Positions 35,049 through 45,220 of a stretch of DNA of 58,131 nt are shown piece by piece. Both the position numbers and the translations under genes were made by a program. The DNA is taken from NCBI GenBank assembly GCA_024280575.1, contig JAJRPV010000058.1, forward strand, positions 1 to 58,131. Reading direction: 5' to 3'. The stretch is from Campylobacterales bacterium (GTDB lineage: Bacteria > Campylobacterota > Campylobacteria > Campylobacterales > Sulfurospirillaceae). The notes beneath the pieces were generated by a model. That model was not told the origin of the DNA. It made no database searches and was given only the letters and a program-made list of their open reading frames with translations. Numbering within the stretch: position 1 is the first letter of the stretch; every line of letters starts with the position of its first letter.

Positions 35049-36479
35049 TTAAAATTTTACTATTATTTTTGTACCGATATCAGGTTTGCTGATTATTTTT
35101 ATCTTAGCTTTATGAATCTCGATTATTTTTTTAACCATAGAAAGACCTAATCCGTACCCTTTTATATGCTCTTTCCCCGGTTGGTTTATTTTGTAAAATT
35201 CATCAAAAATCAGACTTAATTTATCTTTTGGTATTCCTATGCCTTCATCATTTATGATTAGTACGGATTTCACCAAAGAGATTGTCACTTTGTTTTTAGA
35301 AGGAGTAAATTTTATCGCATTGTCTATGAGATTTGCAAGCAGGATTTTTAGCAATGTCGCTTCCGCTTTGATTTGCGAGTAGTCAAGTTTGTCAATATCT
35401 AGTAAAACGCCCTTATTTTGTGCAATCACTCTGAATTCTTCAAAAATCTCCAGTAAAATTCCGTCAAGATTTACTGTTTGAAAAGTATCTCTTATATTCA
35501 TATTTTGTATTCTGGTTAACAAAAGAAGATTACCTACCATATCTTGAAGATAAACTATTTCGTTGTCTATAGATTTTAGAGTGTCTCTATACTCTTTGAT
35601 ATCTTTATTTTTTTTAAGCGCTACATGTATCTGAAGTCTTAGAGCCGTTAACGGTGTTTTGATTTGGTGAGATGCATTTGAGCTGAATTTTTTTGTATTT
35701 TCATATGATTCATTCAGTTTTGCTATAAGCTCATATTTAAAAATACTCAAAGCTTTTATAGAAGCTACCGCTATGATAATAGCACAAAGACCGCGGAGTG
35801 CCTGGACAGGAAAGTGAAATGTATCTATAAAAGTTTTTGTATTTATTATATTGCCGGGAAAATAAGATATCTGATCAACTACTATTCCTGAAAACAGAGC
35901 ATAAAATATAAATGCCATGCCTGCTATTTTAAAATATAGTTTTAATTGATTTATGCTTTGACTTTTTTTAAGAGAATCTCCATAGTAATACAATCCAACC
36001 CCTAAGATAAAAGCACCCCAAAAGCCATATGTGTATCTGATAGCAGCATTTATACCGCCAATCGTGGGATGCAAAAATACTAAAAACAACAAGCCTAAAG
36101 TCGCAAAAGAATAAATTGCAGGTGGATAATAAAATCTGTATATTAAGTGTTTATTGTTATTTTTGCTGTGTTTTAGAAAATTTTTCCTGATTATGAAGCG
36201 AGAAAATTCAAAAAGAAATATATATGATATAAGAAGCAAAAATGATTGCAGATAGTTTAAAGTAGTAAATTTTACGCCGGGATGAATATATTCAAACAGC
36301 CCTATCCAATCTTCAAAGGCATGAGATATAGCAAAAACACCTAGAAGCCAAATCTTTTTAGCAAAAAAATATTCACTCTCTTTTGGTCTTGAAAAAAGAA
36401 CTGATACGCCAAGAACAAAAAAAGACAAACCATATATAAATAGTAGCAACTCCATACTTTCTTGCTCAATAGTAAACAT
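35049..36479 (-). CDS. Membrane sensor histidine kinase
   Basis: The 476-residue protein has about seven transmembrane helices (roughly residues 10-250). The HisKA domain with H-box NASHQIKTPLTALR follows (about 268-282), then HATPase_c with N-box NLIDNAIKFTP, G1 DEGIGIP, F and G2 GYGLGLSMVKKI. The 7TM input lacks a large periplasmic domain, so it probably senses something in the membrane. It starts directly at the end of the 160-residue gene and forms an operon with it; the likely partner regulator is convergent. Confidence 0.9.
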   Translation of the reverse strand: MFTIEQESMELLLFIYGLSFFVLGVSVLFSRPKESEYFFAKKIWLLGVFAISHAFEDWIGLFEYIHPGVKFTTLNYLQSFLLLISYIFLFEFSRFIIRKNFLKHSKNNNKHLIYRFYYPPAIYSFATLGLLFLVFLHPTIGGINAAIRYTYGFWGAFILGVGLYYYGDSLKKSQSINQLKLYFKIAGMAFIFYALFSGIVVDQISYFPGNIINTKTFIDTFHFPVQALRGLCAIIIAVASIKALSIFKYELIAKLNESYENTKKFSSNASHQIKTPLTALRLQIHVALKKNKDIKEYRDTLKSIDNEIVYLQDMVGNLLLLTRIQNMNIRDTFQTVNLDGILLEIFEEFRVIAQNKGVLLDIDKLDYSQIKAEATLLKILLANLIDNAIKFTPSKNKVTISLVKSVLIINDEGIGIPKDKLSLIFDEFYKINQPGKEHIKGYGLGLSMVKKIIEIHKAKIKIISKPDIGTKIIVKF

Positions 36480-37753: not shown

Positions 37754-39268
37754 ATGGAAAAGAAAAATAACTATAAACTACTAGCGGAACTTGCGAAAGA
37801 TTTTACTCTTTTATATGTGGAAGATAATATTGGACTTCAAAAACAAGCTTCTAAAATATTTGAAAAATTTTTTGCAAATGTTATCGTTGCCAATGATGGA
37901 CAAGAAGGCTTGGAATTATTTAAAGAATACTACCCAAATATAGTGATATCCGATATAAAAATGCCTAAGATGAATGGTTTGGATATGGCGAAAAATATAA
38001 AAGATATAGACAAAGAAGTAAAAATTATAATTACTTCAGCATTTGATGAAAAAGAGTATCTTATAGAATCCATAGATGTTGGTATAGACAAATACCTAAA
38101 AAAACCAATTCCTCTTGATGCTATGATAACTTCTTTGATAGAGATGATAAATAAAATAAATGACGAAAAAAATATAAAGCTTTTTGAGAGATATACGGCT
38201 GATTCATTTGAATATCAAGACAATATGCTTATATTGATAGAAAAAGATGAAGTGCTAACGGTCAATAAAAAATGTTTAGAATTTTTTTCTCAAAAAAACA
38301 ATACATCTTTCAAAGAGTTTTTCAGAAAATTTTCTCACCTTTTGTTGCCACATGAAAATTTTTTATATGATAAAGGGCAACCAAGCTGGCTTGAAACAAT
38401 CAAAGACGAAAGTGGTAAACTATTTAATGCCAAGATAAAAGACGACAAGGGTAAAAATAGACATTTCGTTCTAAAGGCAAACAGGATTCCAAATAAAGAT
38501 GATTACTATATACTCTCATTTGATGATATAACCGATCTTGGAATGCTAGAGGAGAATGACTCAAATTTATCCAAAGAAGATAGCATGGAAGAAGAGAAGA
38601 TAAAGATGATAAATCTTCTACATGTATTAAAGAGAAACAAATCAAAAATCAGGTTATTTAACTCATATAAAGGCTTATCTATATCAAATACTGGCACTAT
38701 TGAAGAAGTGACGGCTGAGCAAATCAAAATAAAGACGACATATCTACAACAAAGAGCCATACATATAGATAAAAAAACCGTCATAGAATCCGAACTTTTC
38801 ACAAAAGCACTAAAATGCAAAATGGTCAGTGTAAATTTTGAGACACAAATGGTTGTTTTGGATAATTTTTCTTTTATACCATATCTGCCGTCAGATCAAA
38901 AATATGTGCGCGTAATGCCAGAATCAAACAGTAAAGCAGAGGTCTATTTTAATACGACTAAGATTTCTTCTGATATAAGTATTGTTGATATAAGTATTGA
39001 GGGATGTAATTTTTCTTTTAAATCTTTGCCGGCAGGATTGAAAGAAAAAAGTAATTTAGTGCTTAAACTGAAGCTCGGTATAGAAAAATCATCATTAGAC
39101 TTAAATATAAAAAGTGAAGTTTTAAAGATAAAAGAAAATGCAGAAGATTTTAATGTGGTTGTGACTTTCGAGTTGGAACATGAGATTAAAAAAGAACTGA
39201 TAGATTATATAGCAAAAAGGCAAATGGCTCTTATAAGAGAATTTAAAGGATTGCAAAATGCAAAATGA
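37754..39268 (+). CDS. Response regulator with REC, PAS and PilZ domains
   Basis: The 504-residue protein starts at ATG 37754, behind GGAG. It contains a receiver domain with LLYVEDN and phospho-acceptor in VISDIKMPKMNG (about residues 15-135), a PAS-like domain (about 150-270), and a C-terminal PilZ-like domain with YLPSDQKYVRVMPES and VDISIEGCNFSF (about 380-500), a c-di-GMP receptor fold. It would connect phosphorylation with c-di-GMP. It opens a five-gene run of sensory genes and overlaps the next gene by 11 bases. TACATGTA occurs at 38619. Confidence 0.82.
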   Translation: MEKKNNYKLLAELAKDFTLLYVEDNIGLQKQASKIFEKFFANVIVANDGQEGLELFKEYYPNIVISDIKMPKMNGLDMAKNIKDIDKEVKIIITSAFDEKEYLIESIDVGIDKYLKKPIPLDAMITSLIEMINKINDEKNIKLFERYTADSFEYQDNMLILIEKDEVLTVNKKCLEFFSQKNNTSFKEFFRKFSHLLLPHENFLYDKGQPSWLETIKDESGKLFNAKIKDDKGKNRHFVLKANRIPNKDDYYILSFDDITDLGMLEENDSNLSKEDSMEEEKIKMINLLHVLKRNKSKIRLFNSYKGLSISNTGTIEEVTAEQIKIKTTYLQQRAIHIDKKTVIESELFTKALKCKMVSVNFETQMVVLDNFSFIPYLPSDQKYVRVMPESNSKAEVYFNTTKISSDISIVDISIEGCNFSFKSLPAGLKEKSNLVLKLKLGIEKSSLDLNIKSEVLKIKENAEDFNVVVTFELEHEIKKELIDYIAKRQMALIREFKGLQNAK

Positions 39269-40001
39269 AAAGATAATCTACGATGATGAAAATCACAAGT
39301 GCATAGTTTTCAGTTTTGATGATGAAGAAGCTGACGAGAGTTTTTTGGCAGTAAACCAATATCTTATCATACATAATAATTCTGCCATCTTGATAGATCC
39401 GGGAAGCCAATCAGTTTTTGAAGAGGTTTATGATGCAGTTTGCAGATATATAGATATTAAAAACCTAAAATACATTTTCTATTCTCATCAAGATCCTGAT
39501 GTCGCAGGCTCTATCTCTCAATGGTAAGTTGGCTGCGGGGCCAAACAAATTGTTCCCAAGATCTGGGTTAGATTTATGAGCCATTATGGCTTGATGAATT
39601 TTAACAGACTTATACCTCTTGACGATAAAGGTGCAAAGATACATTTTGGTGAAGATTATTTGCATTTTATTCCTGCTCATTTTTTGCATAGCCCTGGTAA
39701 TTTTTCACTTTATGACAGCCATTCAAAAATTCTTTTTAGCGGTGATATAGGGGCTAGTATTACCCATCAATACGGAGCACGAATTGATAATGTAGATTTT
39801 GATGATATCAAAGATTCATTGCAGGGTTTTCACGAGAGATATATGGCGGGAAATAAGTTTTGCAGAGCATGGGTTCAAAAAGTAAAGCAGCATGATGTTA
39901 AAATTATGGCACCTCAGCACGGTTCATTGCTTAGCGAGAAAAATTATGATAAGTTTTTATCATGGTTTGAAGAGTTGAAATGTGGTGGAGATCTTTATTG
40001 A
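39258..40001 (+). pseudogene. MBL-fold diiron (ODP/flavodiiron-like) protein, interrupted by TAA
   Basis: The 247-codon frame matches metallo-beta-lactamase-fold proteins of the flavodiiron/oxygen-binding diiron (ODP) type without a flavodoxin domain. Metal-site motifs are YSHQDPDVAGSIS at about residues 75-87, PAHFLHSPGNF near 140-150 and LFSGDIGAS near 160. The HxExDH motif of nitric-oxide/oxygen reductases is replaced by HQDPDV, as in sensor-type members. TAA at 39525-39527 follows SISQW; the frame continues with VGCGAKQIVPKIWVRF, so TTA to TAA would explain it. ODP in Treponema senses oxygen for chemotaxis (published for T. denticola). Here it sits in a regulator/kinase cluster, which supports a sensory role. 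Confidence 0.75.
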
Positions 40002-40858
40002 AAAACAAAACAAAAATACTCAATTTTTCTATCATTTTTTTAATTATATTTTCATTTATAGGTTGTGAAAAGAAAATAAAAAAACCGATGGTGTTAGCAG
40101 CAAATCTTTGGGTAGGATATGCACCGTTGTATTACGCAGAGCAAAAGGGCTGGCTTGATAAAAATGGCATAAAATTTGTTGCAACTTTAACTCTTAAACA
40201 AAGTTTAGAATACTATAAAAAAGGCTCATTTGATGTTTTTGCCGGCACAAACTATGAGTTCAATGAAGCAAAAAAGGTTGTAAAAGATTTGATGGGAATT
40301 AAGTTGCTAGATATATCCAAAAATGGAGATTTGATATATAGCAATAGAACCATAGATGAGCTAAAAGCAAGTAAAAAAATAGATGCCTATCTTGAAATTG
40401 ATAGTGTAAATTCGATACTTTTAGAAAAATTTATTGCAAAATATAAACTCAAAAAAGGAAATATAAATTTCATAAATAAGAAAGCAGACAGTATATTAAG
40501 AATAAAAATGAAAGACAGTGCCGCTTTGATTGTGACATACAAACCTTATAACAGAAATTTGAAAAAAATCGGCTATAAAGTTGTTTCTACCGCCCAAAGT
40601 TTAAAAGTTACCGTCGTTGATGCGCTTTTTGCTTCAAAAAATTATGATACAAAGCATATGAAAAAGATTGAAAAATTAAATCAATTATTTGATGTAGCTT
40701 TGGAAGCTCTAAAAAATAATCCTTATAAATTTTATATAGCAATCAAGCCATATTTTGGTTATAAAGAGTATAAAAATTTTCAAAGTGATATGAAATCAGT
40801 CAAGTGGCAAAGTGAAAAAAGTCTGAATGCTCTGCTAAAACAAAGTGAAACAAAATGA
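39998..40858 (+). CDS. Periplasmic substrate-binding lipoprotein (NMT1/SsuA-like)
   Basis: The 286-residue protein has an N-terminal signal helix ending in the lipobox FIGC and a type II binding-protein fold with LAANLWVGYAPLYYAEQKGWL and FDVFAGTNYEF, as in nitrate/sulfonate/thiamin-precursor binding proteins. The start is TTG 39998 behind GGAG; it overlaps the preceding stop. No permease or ATPase lies nearby, but a kinase gene follows with four bases of overlap, so the protein more likely presents ligand to the sensor than feeds a transporter. Confidence 0.75.
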   Translation: MKNKTKILNFSIIFLIIFSFIGCEKKIKKPMVLAANLWVGYAPLYYAEQKGWLDKNGIKFVATLTLKQSLEYYKKGSFDVFAGTNYEFNEAKKVVKDLMGIKLLDISKNGDLIYSNRTIDELKASKKIDAYLEIDSVNSILLEKFIAKYKLKKGNINFINKKADSILRIKMKDSAALIVTYKPYNRNLKKIGYKVVSTAQSLKVTVVDALFASKNYDTKHMKKIEKLNQLFDVALEALKNNPYKFYIAIKPYFGYKEYKNFQSDMKSVKWQSEKSLNALLKQSETK

Positions 40859-42879
40859 AATTAAAATTTAAAATAACTTTTATAATTTTACTGTTTTCAT
40901 TGTTGACGATGATATTCGCATCATTGTTTTATGCAAACCACTTATATGAAAGCAGGTTGAAACTAAGCAGAATTGAGATGATCAACAAAAGCTCTGATTT
41001 GGCATTTCATATTGAAATTAATTTATTTGATAAATTAAATTTGGTCAAAACGATGATAAATGCAAATTTGGTTGAAGAGGCGCTCCTTAACAGCAATTTT
41101 AACTATAAAGATTTATCAAAGAAAGAAATATCAAGGAAAATATCAGAGTTAAATAAAAAATGGATGAGTATAGATGATGAAAATGACACATTTATAAAAC
41201 GATATACAAACAACAAGCTATCTTTGTATCTAAAAAAAGAAAAAAATACATTTCCAAACCTCTTTGGCGAAATATTTATAACAAACAAGTATGGGGCTAT
41301 GATTGCAGCAACTGGTAAACTTACAACTTTGGAACATGAACAAAAGTATTGGTGGAAACAGTGTTATGGTGGAGGCAAAAGTCAAATATTTTTTGATGAC
41401 AGAGGTTTTGATGATAGTGTAAATGGTTATGTTTTAGGCATAGTTGTGCCTATCAAAAAAAATGGAAAATTTATAGGAATCATAAAAGCAAATATCAATA
41501 TTCAGTCGTTGTTTGATACAGTTACGAAAAAATCTACCCAAGAGAATGTGGGAGCTATAAAAATAGTAAGATCAGGTGGTTTAATTGTATATGAAAAAAA
41601 TCTACCCCCGCTTAGCACTAGAGTACCCCTAAAACTCTCAAAAAAATTAAAAACACTCAAAACGGGCGTAGTTGATATGAAAATCTTAGATGAAGATAAG
41701 ATAGTGGCATATTCTCCTGTAAAAATTTCTCTTAAATATGACAATATAATTTTTGGCGGTACAAAAAGTTCTATAGATCACATCTTAGGCAATGATGGTG
41801 AATTGTGGCATGTTGTGATTGAAGAAGATAAAGCTAAAATCTTCAATGATGCCATTGACGACACAAAGGATGTAGCCAATATTGTTTTGGGATTTGTTTT
41901 GTTGATTATTGTTTTGCTTTTTATGATAATTGGTAAGCTTAGTGCTCCTTTGCTTAGGTTGTCTTTCGCGGCCAAAAGAATTGGAGAAGGAGAAAAAAAT
42001 ATAAAAATTGAGCCGGAATCAGATGATGAGGTTGGAGAATTGGCTGTCTCTCTGAGAGATATGCTGGAAAATTTAAAAAAAACAACTGCCTCGCGAGATG
42101 AACTTGAACTTGAGATTAAAAAAAGAATACAGATGCAAGAAGAGCTTAAAAAACAAGATGAAATTTTAATAGCTCAATCAAAACAAGCAGCTATGGGAGA
42201 GATGATAGGTATGATAGCTCACCAATGGAGACAGCCTATCTCTATCATAGCTATGATTGTAAATAATATTCAAATAGATATGGAACTAGGCGAATTAAAA
42301 GAAGAAGATATAAAAAAATGTTCGCAAGAGATAATAAGTGAAACAATGTATTTGTCTCAGACTATAGATGACTTTAGAAATTTCTTCAAACCCGATAAAG
42401 AAAAAGAGCTGATAGAAGTGCAAGAACTCTTTGAAAATGTATTAAAAATAATAGGAAAATCTTTTGAGAGCAATAAAATAGAGTTGATTTTTTCAAAAGA
42501 TTTGGATGTGAAGATAAATACATATGCAAATGAGCTTACACAGGTATTCTTAAATATCTTAAATAATGCAAAAGACGCTCTCGAAGAAAGTTGTGTAAAA
42601 GACAAAAAAGTATCAGTTTCGGCATATATGGAGGAAGGTTTTATTACTTTTAAATTTTGTGATAATGGAGAAAATATCAAAGAAGAGCTTAAAGATAAAA
42701 TCTTTGAACCATATTTTAGTACCAAGAAAGAAAAAAACGGTACAGGTATTGGTCTTTACATGTGTAAAATGATTGTGGAAAAACATATGCTAGGTAAAAT
42801 CTGGACAGAAAATAATAAAGATGGAGTTTGTTTTATGGTAAAATTACCGATTGAACAAATAGGTGCCGAATATGAATAA
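40855..42879 (+). CDS. Sensor histidine kinase with periplasmic Cache-type domain
   Basis: The 674-residue protein has an N-terminal transmembrane helix and a large periplasmic dCache-like domain (about residues 30-340). A second helix near 345-365 leads into HAMP, a coiled coil, then a HisKA domain with AAMGEMIGMIAHQWRQPIS and HATPase_c with LNILNNAKDAL, CDNGENI and GTGIGLYMCKMIVEKHM. The H-box is typical of Campylobacterota. Overlaps the preceding binding lipoprotein (ATGA) and the next regulator, so a three-part relay lipoprotein-kinase-HD-GYP regulator is likely. Confidence 0.9.
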   Translation: MKLKFKITFIILLFSLLTMIFASLFYANHLYESRLKLSRIEMINKSSDLAFHIEINLFDKLNLVKTMINANLVEEALLNSNFNYKDLSKKEISRKISELNKKWMSIDDENDTFIKRYTNNKLSLYLKKEKNTFPNLFGEIFITNKYGAMIAATGKLTTLEHEQKYWWKQCYGGGKSQIFFDDRGFDDSVNGYVLGIVVPIKKNGKFIGIIKANINIQSLFDTVTKKSTQENVGAIKIVRSGGLIVYEKNLPPLSTRVPLKLSKKLKTLKTGVVDMKILDEDKIVAYSPVKISLKYDNIIFGGTKSSIDHILGNDGELWHVVIEEDKAKIFNDAIDDTKDVANIVLGFVLLIIVLLFMIIGKLSAPLLRLSFAAKRIGEGEKNIKIEPESDDEVGELAVSLRDMLENLKKTTASRDELELEIKKRIQMQEELKKQDEILIAQSKQAAMGEMIGMIAHQWRQPISIIAMIVNNIQIDMELGELKEEDIKKCSQEIISETMYLSQTIDDFRNFFKPDKEKELIEVQELFENVLKIIGKSFESNKIELIFSKDLDVKINTYANELTQVFLNILNNAKDALEESCVKDKKVSVSAYMEEGFITFKFCDNGENIKEELKDKIFEPYFSTKKEKNGTGIGLYMCKMIVEKHMLGKIWTENNKDGVCFMVKLPIEQIGAEYE

Positions 42880-44365
42880 CATAAAAGAGTTAAAGCAAAT
42901 TTGTAAAGATTTGCGTGTTTTGTATGTTGAAGATGATAGTAAGTTAGGAAGTATAGTATATGCTTATCTAGCAAAAATTTTCTCTCGCGTAGATATGGCA
43001 ACAGATGGCAAAGATGGATTGGATAAATATAAAAATAATTTTTACGATATCGTAATAACAGATATTTTAATGCCAAAATTAGATGGCTTGGGTATGTCCC
43101 AAGAGATAAAAAAGATAAATAAAAATCAGAAAATTTTAGTGTTGTCGGCATGCTTGGATACTCAAGGTTTTGTAAAATCTATAGAAATAGGGGTAGATGG
43201 GTATATTTTGAAACCTTTTAGGCATGAGCAGTTAAATGAAATCATCTATAAAATAGCAAATTCCATAAATGAATCAAGAGAAAATGAAATTTACAAAACA
43301 AAACTTATGCAACTTGTTGATATAAAAATAAAAGAAGCAAGCAGGCTTGAAAAAGAAAAAGCTGAAAACTACAAAGATATGCTATATACCCTTGTCGGTT
43401 TGATAGAGCAAAGAGATGCTTATACGGGAGATCATTCAAAAAGAGTTGAGCAGTATTGCAAATTGATTGCACTTGAGATGAACATGGATAAAAAATCGCT
43501 AAAAGATTTACTGGAGGCTGCCATGTTACATGATATAGGCAAAGTGGCCATTCCTGATTCTATACTTTTAAAACCCGGCAAATTAAACGAAATAGAATAC
43601 AAACTAATACAACAACATGTGAAGTTAGGATACAAGATACTTAATAACTCTCCTTTGTTTAAAACAATAGCACAAATAGTAAAAGTTCATCATGAGAGGA
43701 TAGATGGAAGTGGATATCCAGATGGGCTAAAAGGGGATGAGATAAGTTTAGGTGGAAAGATCATAGGAGTGGCTGATTCGTTTGATGCGATGACAACTAG
43801 CAGGATTTACAAGCCTCGAAAAACAATAAAAGCTGCCTTAGAAGAGATAGAGTCATTGTCTGGTATTAGATTCGATAAGCAAGTAGTAGCTGCGACATTG
43901 AAGGCATTAAAAGATGTGCAAATAAAAGAGGATATAAGTCAAGAGCCATCTAGTGAGATAGAAAAAGAGAGATTTTCCTATTTTTACAGAGATCACTTAA
44001 CACATCTTTTTAATGAAAATTATTTGGATTTGATTTTAAATAAAAATGTTTTTCAAAATTTATATCAAGAATTATATGTCGTATTTCTCAAAGATTTTCA
44101 CAAGTACAATAAAGAGCATGGCTGGCTAGATGGAGATATTTTACTTAAAGGAGTAGCCGACATACTTAAAAAGAATCATAAAAATAGTCTAATTTTTAGA
44201 ATACATGGTGATGATTTTGTCATACTTGGACCAAAAGGTATGATTTTTGAAGATGTATATGAATTTTGTGAAAAAAATTCCTTAGTGTGCTATCACTCGA
44301 TAGTCGATTTGCATGAAAAAAATATAACATCTATGAAATCTTTGGAAGATTTTATAGGACCATAA
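42872..44365 (+). CDS. Response regulator with HD-GYP and degenerate GGDEF domains
   Basis: The 497-residue protein has a receiver domain (phospho-acceptor in VITDILMPKLDG). A complete HD-GYP c-di-GMP phosphodiesterase domain follows: GDHSKRVEQ, LHDIGKVAIPDSILLKPGKL, HHERIDGSGYPDGL. A C-terminal GGDEF-like part has its active site changed to HGDDF. It should hydrolyse c-di-GMP when phosphorylated. It starts at ATG 42872 (AGGTG ahead) inside the kinase end. Closes the sensory run before the convergent DUF4392 gene. Confidence 0.9.
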   Translation: MNNIKELKQICKDLRVLYVEDDSKLGSIVYAYLAKIFSRVDMATDGKDGLDKYKNNFYDIVITDILMPKLDGLGMSQEIKKINKNQKILVLSACLDTQGFVKSIEIGVDGYILKPFRHEQLNEIIYKIANSINESRENEIYKTKLMQLVDIKIKEASRLEKEKAENYKDMLYTLVGLIEQRDAYTGDHSKRVEQYCKLIALEMNMDKKSLKDLLEAAMLHDIGKVAIPDSILLKPGKLNEIEYKLIQQHVKLGYKILNNSPLFKTIAQIVKVHHERIDGSGYPDGLKGDEISLGGKIIGVADSFDAMTTSRIYKPRKTIKAALEEIESLSGIRFDKQVVAATLKALKDVQIKEDISQEPSSEIEKERFSYFYRDHLTHLFNENYLDLILNKNVFQNLYQELYVVFLKDFHKYNKEHGWLDGDILLKGVADILKKNHKNSLIFRIHGDDFVILGPKGMIFEDVYEFCEKNSLVCYHSIVDLHEKNITSMKSLEDFIGP

Positions 44366-44389: not shown

Positions 44390-45220
44390 TTAGGCTAATC
44401 TAGAGTTGTTCAAATTTTCCAATATCTCTTTTTCAGTATGCCACTCTTTTCCGTCAACGGATTTCACATTTTCACATTTTATACCATCAACACATCCAAA
44501 AGTAAGTATATAGTCCATATATTCTTCAATTTCATCAAACGCAGGTAAAAGTTTTTTTCTCAAAAAAAGTTGCATATAAGTGATAAATCCATAAGCTCCC
44601 CAATTTGATACGGAGGCTATGATTGGATAGTCAGATGTGACGACACAAGGCTCTACATGTAGAGTATTTTTTAAAAATTCCTTGAAGTTGCCCATACCTA
44701 TCTCGTTTCCTCCGTCACCTATGGCGAAAGTTGGATTTGACTTGCCTCCAAGTATATATAATTCATCCACAGGTGCCGTAACTTTGCCTATATCAACACC
44801 TCTTGAGTTTAAGTATTTTCCATTTTCGTTTCTGCCTAATCTCTCTATCGAAAAATGGCATATAGGAGTATAATCATCCAAAATCTTTTGATATTCACTG
44901 TTTTTTAATCCATCTAGCGGAATATAAACAGTCTCTATATCTTTAAAATAATCCTTGCAGTATAAGTCTGTGATGATAACCGGCTTATAGCCTAGTTTTT
45001 CAATCGCAAGAGCCAAAAAATAAGTTCCGATAGGGCCGTCAGTTTCTGCATATCCTTTGACGCAAAAACCTGTATATAAAAAGACAGTGCCTTGCTCTAT
45101 CTCAAGAAAGTTTTGTACAGCTTTTTTGCAGTGTTTTTTTGGATATTGTTTTTGCAATAAATTCATACCTCTAGTTGAGTGACTTAATATGATTTCTTCT
45201 ATTGTTTTATTGTTTTTCAT
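44390..45220 (-). CDS. DUF4392 protein, D-glutamate cyclase C-terminal-like
   Basis: The 276-residue cytoplasmic protein matches the family of DUF4392/GLUCM-like C-terminal domains, with LYTGFCVKGYAETDGPIG at about 49-66 and AIGDGGNEIGMGN near 169-181. The same domain forms the C-terminal half of human DGLUCY (C14orf159), a mitochondrial D-glutamate cyclase making 5-oxo-D-proline. The other half (DUF1445) is encoded divergently at 45290. The function here is inferred from that pairing. TACATGTA at 44654 encodes LHV. Confidence 0.78.
   Translation of the reverse strand: MKNNKTIEEIILSHSTRGMNLLQKQYPKKHCKKAVQNFLEIEQGTVFLYTGFCVKGYAETDGPIGTYFLALAIEKLGYKPVIITDLYCKDYFKDIETVYIPLDGLKNSEYQKILDDYTPICHFSIERLGRNENGKYLNSRGVDIGKVTAPVDELYILGGKSNPTFAIGDGGNEIGMGNFKEFLKNTLHVEPCVVTSDYPIIASVSNWGAYGFITYMQLFLRKKLLPAFDEIEEYMDYILTFGCVDGIKCENVKSVDGKEWHTEKEILENLNNSRLA

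Follow-up and report, generated by a model that had tools for sequence, protein, structure and literature searches.

A candidate mosaic operon pairing an oxygen-binding diiron protein with a YcgR-like response regulator in Campylobacterales

Gene content of the locus

The window, meaning the whole stretch of DNA analysed here (58,131 nucleotides), belongs to a Campylobacterales draft assembly of 86 contigs and 2.06 Mb. It contains a locus of five overlapping frames on the same (+) strand, with a divergent Ysc84 gene on one side and a convergent gene (44390-45220) on the other. The features of the locus, with the evidence for each, are as follows:

37754..39268, + strand: REC - PAS-like - PilZN/PilZ (YcgR-like) response regulator, 504 aa (Pfam, homologues, fold match, motifs)
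39258..40001, + strand: gene for an oxygen-binding diiron protein (ODP), interrupted (Pfam, PDB homology, alignment)
39525..39527, + strand: in-frame TAA stop at codon 90 of the ODP gene (frame reading and 23 orthologues)
about 39998..40858, + strand: NMT1/THI5-like binding lipoprotein, 286 aa from TTG 39998 (ORF, homologues)
40855..42879, + strand: membrane sensor kinase, dCache-HAMP-HisKA-HATPase, 674 aa (domain scan, motifs)
about 42872..44365, + strand: REC-HD-GYP protein with a C-terminal degenerate GGDEF domain, ~497 aa from ATG 42872 (domain scan, motifs)

Successive frames overlap by 11, 4, 4 and ~8 bp, which suggests translational coupling of the five genes, and counts from a promoter and terminator scan of the locus were at background level. 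The lipoprotein probably starts at TTG 39998, which overlaps with the stop of the ODP gene in the sequence TTGA; its frame also has an ATG further upstream, at 39980. The earliest start of the REC-HD-GYP gene is GTG 42863. A preliminary description of this DNA had reported five overlapping genes. Coordinates, strand and overlaps stand, but these are not five intact genes, as the ODP frame is interrupted by the TAA. The domain assignments of that description were largely right, but the stop codon had been missed and the unity of the cluster overstated.

For the regulator, which had been read as REC-PAS-PilZ, Pfam matches were obtained for REC (9e-23) and PilZ (5e-4). The receiver domain conserves the phospho-acceptor D67 as well as T94 and K117. 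This part of the earlier reading is borne out together with the PilZ fold, but the protein scan gave the PilZ match a score below the Pfam cut-off (20.9 vs 22.5), the domain carries a QxxxR motif, and Pfam called no PAS domain in the protein of the window. Among homologues, PilZ was called in 11 of 22 and PAS in a minority. An AlphaFold model based on two sequences was weak (pLDDT 47) with a usable C-terminal half, and the two-barrel part of this half had its best PDB fold matches in MotI (3.8e-9), MrkH and VCA0042. In a profile search with the regulator, the MotI protein YpfA ranked first at a non-significant E-value of 0.07. This low-confidence model, in weak agreement with the profile search, predicts a PilZN-PilZ (YcgR-type) fold.

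PilZ motif I reads QKYVR (residues 382-386), i.e. QxxxR and not RxxxR, while motif II reads DISIEG (412-417) and follows [D/N]xSxxG. Across the family, QxxxR is found in the window and in related members of the genus and RxxxR in most others; DxSxxG is found in the window and DxSxxA/S in most others, and both canonical motifs occur in only 3 of 40 family members. Because motif I is QxxxR, and because replacing both motif-I arginines of Leptospira YcgR abolished binding (PMC11800159), c-di-GMP binding by the PilZ domain of the window is uncertain. PixA of Myxococcus xanthus controls motility without a need for c-di-GMP binding under the conditions tested (PMC8316039), and a PilZ regulator driven by phosphorylation or by a partner therefore has precedent.

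The third gene had been described as a lone binding lipoprotein without a transporter. This was confirmed by its surroundings, as no transporter gene adjoins it in the window and its homologues lie beside GGDEF/EAL proteins. The protein has a lipobox (...FIGC), is only weakly NMT1/THI5-like and gave no match in profile and sequence searches of the PDB; its single-sequence AlphaFold model reached a pLDDT of 35. Among 399 genomes sampled from the order, 58 encode homologues. At 16 of 18 homologue loci outside the arrangement of the window they are direct neighbours of a gene for a membrane GGDEF and/or EAL protein, in most cases with an overlap, and the remaining two are cut or broken genes. This genomic context supports membership in a family of sensory proteins that lack a transporter and are linked to c-di-GMP enzymes. 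While the homologues are partnered by GGDEF or GGDEF-EAL proteins, the partner in the genus of the window is a dCache-HAMP kinase. At other loci, the kinases close to the regulator have SBP_bac_3 or PAS sensors fused to them, so the sensor is exchangeable.

Transporter-less NMT1-like lipoproteins beside membrane GGDEF/EAL proteins (L169-L188) are widespread in Campylobacterales and could represent a large set of NspS-MbaA-like sensors. The host genome encodes FliG and many GGDEF proteins; on its contigs C52 and C11, the frames matched by NMT1 and those matched by GGDEF agree in length (775 and 708 aa), which suggests binding-protein/GGDEF fusions elsewhere in this genome.

The last two genes agree with their earlier naming as a Cache kinase and a REC-HD-GYP protein with a dead GGDEF. 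The kinase (40855-42879) has the order Cache-HAMP-HisKA-HATPase, with HQWRQP as its H-box and DNGEN as its G1 box. Relatives have DNAGG at this position, and the altered G1 box possibly weakens ATP binding by the kinase. In the REC-HD-GYP protein the phosphodiesterase motifs HDIGK and HHERIDGSGYP are intact, and the degenerate GGDEF motif reads HGDDF, departing from GG[D/E]EF.

The diiron protein and its interrupted frame

The second frame, previously called an ODP-like diiron protein, has full-length homology to solved structures. In phmmer searches of the PDB it matched 6qrq (E 2.6e-65) and 6qnm (E 3.7e-60), both named oxygen-binding diiron protein there, with flavodiiron enzymes far behind. 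Judged by this homology, it is a true ODP (Pfam PF19583). The metal-ligand positions H77, D79, D81, H144, D163 and H221 are all kept in the frame, and the ligand motifs SHQDPDV, HSPG, FSGDIGA and APQHG are present. The protein is assigned to the metallo-lactamase/flavodiiron superfamily, has no flavodoxin domain, and no reductase gene was recognised beside it.

In the host genome this frame is not an intact ORF, owing to the TAA at 39525-39527. Translated from its normal start, the sequence as it reads would yield no more than an 89-residue fragment. If real, the stop would remove most of the ODP and, because the likely TTG start of the lipoprotein overlaps the ODP stop, it would also uncouple lipoprotein translation. 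Among the 24 ODP orthologues in 399 genomes of the order, the window copy alone has an internal stop, and the 23 others have Ser, Ala or Thr at the aligned position. Downstream of the stop, pN/pS against close relatives is 0.17-0.20, the value seen between intact copies. Since constraint after the stop matches that of intact copies and the orthologues have Ser, Ala or Thr, the stop would be either recent or a sequencing or assembly error. A long-decayed ODP found no support, as constraint after the stop is as strong as in intact copies, and programmed readthrough was set aside because none of the orthologues shares a stop at that codon.

It is quite conceivable, at somewhat below an even chance, that the stop is an artefact, arising from sequencing, from assembly or from a minority strain, and that the ODP is intact in the organism. 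The many contigs of the draft assembly, the low pN/pS after the stop and the complete set of ligand residues all point in this direction, but sister genomes have independently deleted or lost the ODP, so that a real loss is plausible. An artefact would be compatible with the explanation preferred below, except for the oxygen arm being cut in the present assembly.

Distribution of the five genes and of the ODP-regulator pair

The five-gene order is complete, with overlapping genes, in the window, G007 and G003, and G008 probably has it as well in a copy divided over two contigs. In these four loci, the ODP is intact in G007 and probably in G008, and broken in the window and in G003. In the latter (L128:5432-5689) an in-frame internal deletion, with short similar sequences at its junction, has left 85 codons and intact neighbours. 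The ODP is absent from the locus in G001 and G005; the locus consists of the regulator and two kinases up to the contig end in G001 and of only the regulator and kinase in G005. Extra Cache/kinase genes replace the lipoprotein in G004, and the contig of G002 ends after the ODP. Outside the genus, the lipoprotein was found at none of the ODP loci read. G007 additionally contains a 55-residue remnant (L046:6125-6289) of the kinase that neighbours the locus in the window (35049-36479); the response regulator of this kinase was not found beside the remnant.

The preliminary description had taken the five genes as a single unit that would sense a periplasmic ligand and oxygen or redox state together. 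As a unit the set does not survive the neighbourhood survey, being seen only in 3-4 members of one genus with the ODP repeatedly lost or broken. By gene neighbourhood, the cluster divides into the regulator with the ODP, the lone lipoprotein, and the kinase with the REC-HD-GYP protein. An obligate system of five genes, in which periplasmic ligand and oxygen would set c-di-GMP breakdown and a PilZ output, would fit the overlaps in the window, G007 and G003 and the consistent arrangement of G008 across two contigs. It is nevertheless improbable, as at least one member is missing in G001, G004 and G005 of the same genus, the ODP loci read in other genera all lack the lipoprotein, and two of the four loci with five genes have a broken ODP. 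What remains of the proposed joint sensing is the ODP homology, the pair and the sensory lipoprotein family, whereas the set of five is not kept and the ODP is cut here.

The survey gave a different result for the ODP and the REC-PilZ regulator, which do stay together. In the sample of 399 genomes of the order, 24 had an ODP and all 24 also had the regulator. The two genes lie at most 3.3 kb apart on the same contig in 23 of the 24, and the regulator is directly upstream in 20, mostly with an overlap of 4-14 bp. A phylum-wide sample added three further ODP genomes, each with the regulator adjacent upstream and an overlap of 8-11 bp. A conserved pair in Campylobacterales is thus supported. The converse does not hold, as the regulator is often found without an ODP. 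Because of this frequent occurrence alone, the repeated changes of ODP presence on the tree and the losses within the genus, the ODP looks like an input that the regulator can do without. ODP pairing as the mark of one regulator clade was rejected, with at least six changes on supported tree branches. In other genera and families (G043, G360, G390 and G521), a REC-HD-GYP protein of the same subfamily as in the window is encoded close to the pair.

In G004, of the same genus, an ODP domain is fused to GGDEF in a single protein of 450 aa (L050:4680-6032), which would link an ODP directly to c-di-GMP synthesis.

That the ODP is an enzyme detoxifying O2 or NO, which travels with the regulator by chance and is not its signalling partner, is very unlikely: its superfamily would allow for it, but it has no flavodoxin domain and no recognised reductase gene next to it, it is accompanied by the regulator in 27 of 27 genomes, an ODP-GGDEF fusion exists in the same genus, and its relative in Treponema denticola is an oxygen sensor for chemotaxis (PMC7666581).

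A possible mosaic of two sensory modules and its known relatives

The explanation that we favour, with moderate confidence, sees the locus as a mosaic operon in which two sensory modules are joined, one comprising the regulator and the ODP (module A) and the other the lipoprotein, the kinase and the HD-GYP protein (module B). Module A, which is Campylobacterales-wide, combines a REC-PAS-PilZN-PilZ regulator with YcgR/MotI-type output and an overlapping, cytosolic diiron ODP, whose binding of O2 or Fe(II) would act on the regulator and, by way of the regulator, on the flagellar motor. Module B would have been assembled in the genus of the window. Here the Cache domain of the kinase would be presented with a ligand by the dedicated sensory lipoprotein, and the kinase in turn would phosphorylate the REC-HD-GYP phosphodiesterase and probably also the REC-PilZ protein. 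As the present assembly reads, the oxygen arm is cut and ligand sensing left as the working input. The sequence itself establishes the identities of the genes, their overlaps, the conserved pair, the stop codon in the ODP frame and, through genomic context, the sensory character of the lipoprotein family, while ligands, phosphotransfer, an effect on the flagellum and c-di-GMP binding by the PilZ domain are matters of inference. Against this explanation stand the incomplete PilZ motif I in the window and genus, the dispensability of the ODP (absent in G001 and G005, deleted in G003, stopped in the window), the altered G1 box of the kinase and the promoter scan at background. The G1 change and the ODP stop may together reflect partial decay of the operon in the host genome.

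A more speculative and rather doubtful possibility is that the ODP and the REC-PAS-YcgR protein form a two-protein motility brake gated by oxygen or iron. The diiron protein, and not c-di-GMP alone, would then control the YcgR-like effector, with phosphorylation as a second input. Control by something other than c-di-GMP alone is suggested by the degenerate PilZ motifs of many family members.

Oxic-anoxic boundaries are the habitat of many Campylobacterales, and the route from oxygen or iron level to a motility decision is only partly known in this order. The overlapping ODP/REC-YcgR pair provides a specific two-gene target for this question, and the repeated ODP losses with the regulator kept provide natural controls. 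The lone lipoproteins paired with GGDEF-EAL proteins are a second, broader set of uncharacterised ligand sensors.

The locus is composed of known signalling parts. The pairing of an ODP with a REC-PilZ (REC-YcgR) protein is undescribed in the literature searched, most subscription journals lying outside the search. With the ODPs of T. denticola and Thermotoga maritima (6qnm, 6qrq) the ODP of the window shares homology over the full length, the motifs SHQDPDV, HSPG, FSGDIGA and APQHG, a structure without a flavodoxin domain and adjoining signalling genes. The T. denticola ODP couples to a chemoreceptor and CheA, whereas the partner in the window is the REC-PAS-YcgR protein, and unlike both relatives the ODP gene of the window has a stop codon.

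The regulator resembles the two-barrel PilZ proteins YcgR, MotI and VCA0042 in its PilZN-PilZ fold match and DxSxxG motif. It differs from them by the REC and PAS-like domains in front, by QxxxR as motif I in the genus and by DxSxxA/S as motif II in most other members. Like PixA of M. xanthus, which consists of PilZ and a receiver, it would be a PilZ-output response regulator of motility, although PixA has the opposite domain order, no described PilZN or PAS and an orphan gene (PMC8316039). Finally, NspS-MbaA of Vibrio cholerae (PMC8079147) likewise has a periplasmic binding protein encoded beside a membrane signalling partner and no transporter genes. In the window the binding protein is an NMT1-like lipoprotein and its partner a Cache histidine kinase, not a GGDEF-EAL protein, but the homologues of this lipoprotein do adjoin GGDEF-EAL proteins, as in the V. 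cholerae system.
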